A stretch of DNA of 50,278 bases, taken from contig CAJWJK010000005.1 in NCBI GenBank assembly GCA_913041535.1, positions 72,984 through 123,261 of the forward strand. The letters are read 5' to 3'. Origin of the DNA: an uncultured Alphaproteobacteria bacterium (lineage in GTDB: Bacteria > Pseudomonadota > Alphaproteobacteria > VGEJ01). Shown one piece after another: positions 29,799 to 50,278 of the stretch (its first letter is position 1; every line of letters starts with the position of its first letter). The notes under the pieces were generated by a model. That model saw only the letters and a program-made list of their open reading frames with translations. It had not been told where the DNA came from and made no database searches. Position numbers and translations under genes: made by a program.

Positions 29799-30281
29799 TC
29801 ATTTCTTTCGGAATTCGTTGAGATTAACAATATCAGCCTTTGCGGTCATCTTTTCAAAAGTTTGTTGGCGTTTATCAGTCCCAACAGAGGCCTTTGACAC
29901 TTCCCGTTTATTATCTGCTGTTTCTTCGGGTGGTCCGAATTGGAGTCCAAATTGGGCGCTGGGGTCGGCAAAGGTTGTTATAGCCATGAACGGGACAAAG
30001 ATACGTTCATCAACAGCGTTAAAGCGGAGTTTTACCTGGAATCCATGATCTGCGACTTCTAGATCCCAAAACTGATGCTGTAGAACTATAGTCATCGACG
30101 AAGGATGGTGCTCCTTAAGGCGCTCAGACAACAGGGATTCTGCGTCATCTGTGCGGAATGAAATGTAGAAGTGTTGGTCACCAGAAAGGCCATATTCTTG
30201 TACTTGGACCAAAATGTCCTTAACAACAGATCGCAAAGCATCTTCGACAATCGATGTGTAGTTGACGGGATGATTTTCCAT
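29799..30281 (-). CDS. sspB: ClpXP adaptor protein SspB (alphaproteobacterial type)
   Basis: SspB binds ssrA-tagged proteins and delivers them to ClpXP. The 160-residue product has a folded N-terminal domain (about residues 1-115; landmarks HFYISFRTDD, SMTIVLQHQFWDLEV, LRFNAVDERIFVPFMAITTF), a charged linker, and a short C-terminal tail, ADIVNLNEFRKK, which fits the ClpX-binding motif position in SspB proteins. The gene lies about 65 bases downstream of ssrA on the same strand. This neighbourhood strongly supports the call. The order ssrA, sspB, fumC on the minus strand suggests shared transcription for at least sspB and fumC. Confidence 0.93.
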   Translation of the reverse strand: MENHPVNYTSIVEDALRSVVKDILVQVQEYGLSGDQHFYISFRTDDAESLLSERLKEHHPSSMTIVLQHQFWDLEVADHGFQVKLRFNAVDERIFVPFMAITTFADPSAQFGLQFGPPEETADNKREVSKASVGTDKRQQTFEKMTAKADIVNLNEFRKK

Positions 30282-30344
30282 CGCAATGGCAACCCTCGGA
30301 TGTTGTGTGTCCGACGTTGGGACAATAGTACGAAGCTCGGTACG

Positions 30345-30676
30345 GTTAAATAGGTCTCACCTTTACGCTAAGCCAAGTGGGGAGCTTCTGTTGCCCGGTG
30401 CTCCCCGAACCGCGCTCACCTATTGCTAGGCAGCAAGGCGGGCTTCGCCCGCATAGTTGTCATTGGCAGTTTTATGCCTGGTCCGATAACGGCGGTACCA
30501 TGCCGAGCGAAGACTATATCTTTAATGCGCGCGTCGATCCTGATTCGCCCCCAACAGAAGCCGCCCAAACTAGGAAAAAACCATGTCTCGGCTTATGGTG
30601 GAGGCGCCGGGTACTGCCCCCGGGTCCGCTACGCCTATTACATAAAGCGTTTATCGCTATAGTCGTTAAACGACTC
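30345..30676 (-). ncRNA. ssrA: Two-piece (circularly permuted) tmRNA gene
   Basis: Read on the minus strand, an acceptor piece (about 30676 to 30596) ends in CGCCTCCACCA, and a coding piece (30552 to about 30345) begins GGGGGCG. The two ends form a 7-bp acceptor stem with a G-U third pair, the alanine identity element. The acceptor piece has a 5-bp T-stem CCGGG/CCCGG with a 7-base loop GGCAGTA. The coding piece holds the tag, a 7-bp hairpin (30379-30385 with 30400-30406) and a 7-bp outer pair AATAGGT/ACCTATT ending at 30349. Pieces are separated by a 43-base segment, 30553-30595, which itself forms a 6-bp stem. This permuted layout is established for Alphaproteobacteria. The outer ends are estimates. 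Confidence 0.93.
30426..30467 (-). other. tmRNA tag reading frame, ANDNYAGEARLAA-stop
   Basis: From the resume codon GCC at 30467 the frame reads ANDNYAGEARLAA then TAG (30428-30426). With the alanine on the tmRNA the tag is AANDNYAGEARLAA. The first residues AANDNY match the SspB-binding part and the final LAA matches the ClpX degron. Six bases of GCGGGC and GCCCGC around a GAA loop form a perfect hairpin inside the tag frame. Confidence 0.93.
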
Positions 30677-30680
30677 CTAC

Positions 30681-30709
30681 AATATAGCTATATAAGAAAG
30701 GCTTTTGAA
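30681..30709 (-). promoter_or_regulatory. Candidate ssrA promoter
   Basis: On the minus strand, TTCAAA (30709-30704) and TATATT (30686-30681) are spaced by 17 bases. Transcription would begin near 30674-30676, just before the acceptor piece. The -10 is close to consensus and the -35 has three of six. Confidence 0.55.
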
Positions 30710-30804
30710 GTGTTGATGGCAAATTGTATTTAATAATTGTTTGTTGCTGGTGGCCGCTCCCTCGTAAATGTAAAGTATACTTCTTCTTAACATGTCGGTA
30801 GCAG

Positions 30805-31743
30805 ATGACTGTCAATTCGGATCAGAACGCAGAGATTGAGGCTCAGAGGTCAGCTGCGCAGCCTACGCGCAGGGTCGTAGCTAAAGGGCTTGAAGAAATT
30901 CTTTACCAGATAGTTCCTGTGTTAGATCACGGATTTATCAGAGTAATTGACTATATGGGTGATGACTCGGCAATCGTGCAGGCAGCGCGGGTATCCTATG
31001 GTCGTGGCACCAAACGAGTGAGTGAGGATAGGGGGCTGATACGTTATCTCATGCGGCACCGACACACGACACCATTCGAAATGTGTGAGATAAAGTATCA
31101 CTGTAAACTTCCTATTTTTGTGGCCCGACAGTGGATCCGTCACCGTACTGCGAACGTTAATGAGTATTCAGCTCGGTATTCGATTTTGGACAATGAATTC
31201 TATATTCCTAATGCTGAGCATCTTGCGTCGCAGTCAGATGCTAATCGTCAAGGGCGTTCAGGAGTATTGGAGGGTGAGGAAGCACAAAGAGTTCTTCATC
31301 TGCTTCGGGATGATGCGGAGAATGCATATATGCACTACGCAGAAATGCTCAACGAGAATTCCCAGGAGCAAAAGCCCTATCCCGAGAGAAGTGGGTTGGC
31401 GAGGGAATTAGCAAGGATGAATCTTTCGCTTAATTTTTACACCCAATGGTATTGGAAAATTGACCTCCAAAATCTTATGCATTTTTTGGAACTTCGAGCT
31501 GATCCTCATGCCCAGTACGAGATTCGAGCGTACGCTGACGCTATGCTAGAAACGATTCGACATTGGGTCCCTCACACTTTTCAGGCTTTCATGGATTATG
31601 GAATCGGTGGCGTGCGGTTATCGTCCGGTGCCTTAGAGATTGTTAAGCGCCTTATCAACGGAGAATCGGTAAGTCGGGAGGATACAGACCTTTCGGCAAG
31701 AGAGTGGAGTGAATTGATGGCCATACTAGGTATAGAAACATAG
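30805..31743 (+). CDS. thyX: FAD-dependent thymidylate synthase ThyX
   Basis: ThyX methylates dUMP to dTMP using FAD, NADPH and methylenetetrahydrofolate, replacing the ThyA reaction. The 312-residue product carries the defining motif [11 protein letters not shown] (about nt 31137-31169), matching RHR followed seven residues on by Ser. [15 protein letters not shown] and [20 protein letters not shown] are further family regions. The first 30 residues ([19 protein letters not shown]) are likely disordered. ATG 30805 is the start. The gene is on its own between the minus-strand ssrA and mrp. The finding implies a folate and thymidylate economy like other ThyX users; thyA may be absent, but this window cannot show that. 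Confidence 0.96.

Positions 31744-50224: not shown

Positions 50225-50278
<54 letters not shown>

Follow-up and report, generated by a model that had tools for sequence, protein, structure and literature searches.

The window, a 50,278-nucleotide stretch of alphaproteobacterial DNA, carries a single tmRNA gene, located on its minus strand and almost certainly the chromosomal housekeeping ssrA gene in its alphaproteobacterial, circularly permuted form. The permuted, two-piece reading is supported by three kinds of sequence evidence: a covariance model match; a call by ARAGORN, which uses a different method; and the anatomy of the gene. The Rfam model RF01849 (alpha_tmRNA) matches from end to end (model positions 1-355 of 355; E 4.4e-74), scoring 253.4 bits where the gathering cut-off is 50 bits. 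A newer general model, RF04321 (tmRNA_permuted), matches 30658-30426 with 148 bits. ARAGORN calls a permuted tmRNA with the tag ANDNYAGEARLAA, and positions 222-263 of that call, its coding part, correspond to window 30467-30426. Together, the full-length minus-strand match and the permuted call bear out a sequence-only reading that had proposed a split tmRNA gene here. Of the span which that reading gave, 30345-30676, the location stands; the 5' limit does not, as the gene reaches to about 30688-30713.

The sequence analyses yielded no evidence against a housekeeping permuted ssrA. Integration of genomic islands can leave gene fragments behind. A rival reading is that this tmRNA copy is degenerate and non-functional, either a pseudogene or what is left of an integration site, and that a working gene lies at another place in the genome. 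In its favour, tmRNA genes are favoured integration sites of genomic islands (PMC11915505). However, this gene is full length, with acceptor stem, CCA, tag, and stop all intact, and RF01849 has no second match in the genome, whose completeness is rated 100%. The single complete copy contradicts the pseudogene, to which we assign practically no probability.

The gene displays the two halves in permuted order (Table 1). Read on the minus strand, the acceptor half ends CGCCTCCACCA at 30596 and lies 5' of the coding half, which starts at 30552; both positions, as previously proposed, are exact in the raw sequence. The intervening spacer has counterparts of 8-68 nt in relatives (one surveyed locus, L005, excluded). 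Between the two pieces, GGGGGCG and CGCCTCC form an acceptor stem with seven of seven pairs, the third being the anticipated G-U. The tag frame and its stop, likewise anticipated, run from the GCC resume codon at 30467 to a TAG ending at 30426. No intrinsic terminator was seen, and a σ70 promoter match is at chance level only; such scans are little informative for this class.

Table 1. Features of the permuted tmRNA locus in window coordinates
Feature	Position	Strand	Basis
Permuted tmRNA gene ssrA, extent of RF01849 match	30376..30713	-	RF01849 253.4 bits; ARAGORN 30335-30688
Acceptor piece, 5' end approximate (inferred)	30596..30688	-	T-arm GCGGACCCGGGGGCAGTACCCGGCGCC, encoded CCA 30598-30596
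Internal transcribed spacer, 43 nt, removal expected	30553..30595	-	Sequence
Coding piece, starts GGGGGCG, 3' end approximate	30376..30552	-	RF01849, ARAGORN, raw sequence
Tag frame, GCC AAT GAC AAC TAT GCG GGC GAA GCC CGC CTT GCT GCC TAG (ANDNYAGEARLAA, then stop)	30426..30467	-	ARAGORN
Inverted repeat GCGGGC-GAA-GCCCGC within the tag frame; the extra Gly codon is part of it	30438..30452	-	Sequence; marginal against shuffles
sspB, next downstream gene	29799..30281	-	PF04386 E 3.3e-37, 128.4 bits (cut-off 27)
thyX, opposite side of tmRNA	30805-31743	+	

Permuted genes for two-piece tmRNAs are well established in Alphaproteobacteria (the RF01849 family, with Caulobacter as the studied case); the Caulobacter RNA is reported to work in trans-translation (Keiler et al. 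2000, reviewed in PMC3985003). The window gene shares with the alpha_tmRNA family the permuted order, the acceptor stem with G-U at the third pair, the CCA end, the alpha-type T-arm, the ANDN...LAA tag, and the 3' GGCAACAGAA hairpin. There is no structural difference between them, and the tag is ANDNYAEARLAA with one added glycine. A sample of 385 genomes from the class has this family in 352, and 53 of 59 relatives carry it too. A survey of loci L001-L079 is not an even sample, because the loci were mostly picked by best tmRNA score; the third acceptor pair is G-U in 70 of the 71 examined there. Acceptor pairs in relatives include GGGGACG/CGTCTCC, GGGGGTG/CACCTCC, GGGGTCG/CGACTCC, and GGGGCCG/CGGCTCC, so the lower pairs vary on both sides together (the script demanded at least six of seven pairs). 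A 2025 tmRNA database of about 97,000 unique sequences holds 11,946 unique permuted ones (PMC11915505). The window ssrA is an ordinary further instance of this catalogued gene form.

Recognised neighbours flank the tmRNA on both sides, sspB (to 30281, minus strand) and thyX (from 30805, plus strand), and the earlier observation that the gap holds no coding gene is thereby upheld. A mechanically listed plus-strand ORF of 118 amino acids crosses the tmRNA and has no Pfam family match. At the far end of the window, 50225-50278 is a tRNA gene cut by the window end (RF00005, 38 bits).

Beyond the tmRNA, sspB is followed by fumC. SspB is the adaptor through which tmRNA-tagged proteins reach ClpXP, and the window copy is the only sspB in the genome. 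Its product has relatives in the PDB (2qaz, 'SspB Protein'; 2qas; 2nys) with E values of 1e-23 to 9e-27 over most of its length. Entries 2qaz and 2qas are the Caulobacter protein and 2nys that of Agrobacterium; binding of ANDNYAGEARLAA by the window SspB is a prediction.

The same arrangement recurs elsewhere. Among the 63 surveyed loci with enough downstream sequence, 43 have a same-strand SspB domain beginning no more than 1.2 kb from the coding-piece start (median 284 nt); L005, a wrong-strand placement with too little downstream sequence, was left out of this count. The tagging RNA and the adaptor for its tag are usually neighbours, and the two are possibly co-transcribed. A limited search of the literature found no report of ssrA-sspB adjacency.

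The tag itself departs only slightly from a familiar form. ANDNYAEARLAA is a common tag found in many relatives, and the window tag is that sequence plus one Gly codon, with its AANDNY and LAA ends intact. The sequence-only reading had described GEAR inserted between ANDNYA and LAA; an insertion is present, and is better read as a single Gly codon within ANDNYA-EARLAA. In the only other same-family genome compared, the tag is ANDNDAGLARIAA, with glycine at the same place. With and without the extra glycine the window tag reads AANDNYAGEARLAA and AANDNYAEARLAA, respectively. Surveyed tags span 10 to 25 residues, so a tag of 13 residues is unremarkable. (Among the ARAGORN calls, tags of 20-25 residues occur at L017, L024, and L049, and unusual tag starts or ends at L014, L044, and L050; examples of these long or atypical calls are AKDSINDNTPALVAANGNYLAARAA, with an 8-bp stem in frame, and ANDNFVACNDNYGDAISVAA, with the NDN motif repeated.)

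The suggestion that the tag might be new is weakened accordingly. A scan of one genome per species, covering about 85,000 species, found the identical tag in exactly one other record, JANQKC010000014.1 (L053), from the metagenome-assembled genome Alphaproteobacteria bacterium PL25a_bin.144. That locus likewise has the permuted form, the same 13-residue tag, and sspB directly downstream. Its tmRNA is 75% identical to that of the window in DNA, and its SspB 42% identical; it therefore belongs to another organism. Because the tag is identical in a separate MAG and one glycine away from a very common form, it is not strikingly new. A text search of open-access papers did not find the exact window tag, but it did not find the common tag ANDNYAEARLAA either and is hence uninformative. 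A phage-borne origin was considered and rejected: the tag pattern has no match in viral contigs.

Does the extra codon serve a purpose? A perfect GCGGGC-NNN-GCCCGC repeat is present in all three Gly-carrying tags (window, L041, and L053), and the loop differs in the same-family genome (GCGGGC-TTG-GCCCGC). The stem alone is calculated at -10.4 kcal/mol. This perfect, G+C-rich, 6-bp stem would suit an mRNA-like domain peculiar to the lineage, in which a regulated hairpin slows or pauses the ribosome past the resume codon. Against this, the stem is marginal, since 3-7% of shuffles of the variable part (3% for the window tag) reach a stem of at least 6 bp; its sequence is identical in all three tags, so there is no covariation; and ribosomes readily unwind stems such as GCGGGC/GCCCGC. 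Nor do longer tags carry a general excess of structure, and the hairpin as a general trait of such tags was rejected (no difference; Mann-Whitney p 0.65). We regard a regulated hairpin as highly improbable. We also consider it very unlikely that in this lineage the inserted Gly codon, by making a G+C-rich hairpin and setting the end of the tag bound by SspB further from the end bound by ClpX, tunes tagging or delivery to ClpXP.

The remaining components of trans-translation are encoded in the genome: one smpB (PF01668, E 4.1e-54), and both clpX and clpP. By analogy with studied relatives, the housekeeping ssrA proposed here would be transcribed as a single RNA in which the acceptor half precedes the coding half. 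Excision of the spacer by RNase P and 3' processing would then leave two RNAs joined through the acceptor stem and a helix below the tRNA-like domain. Alanyl-tRNA synthetase would charge the CCA end, following the rule of a G-U third pair. The charged two-piece RNA, together with SmpB, presumably would enter stalled ribosomes and append alanine plus ANDNYAGEARLAA. Finally, the neighbouring SspB would be expected to bind the AANDNY part of the tag, and ClpX the LAA end, committing the tagged protein to degradation by ClpXP. Each of these steps, from transcription and processing through charging, tagging, and degradation, is drawn from those relatives; gene anatomy, family membership, and the presence of smpB, sspB, clpX, and clpP are direct observations.

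The significance of all this hardly goes beyond annotation. A tag variant with one extra glycine is added to the record, and an alphaproteobacterial family from which few genomes have been sampled is confirmed to possess the full gene set for trans-translation and for SspB-ClpXP, with ssrA placed beside its own adaptor gene.
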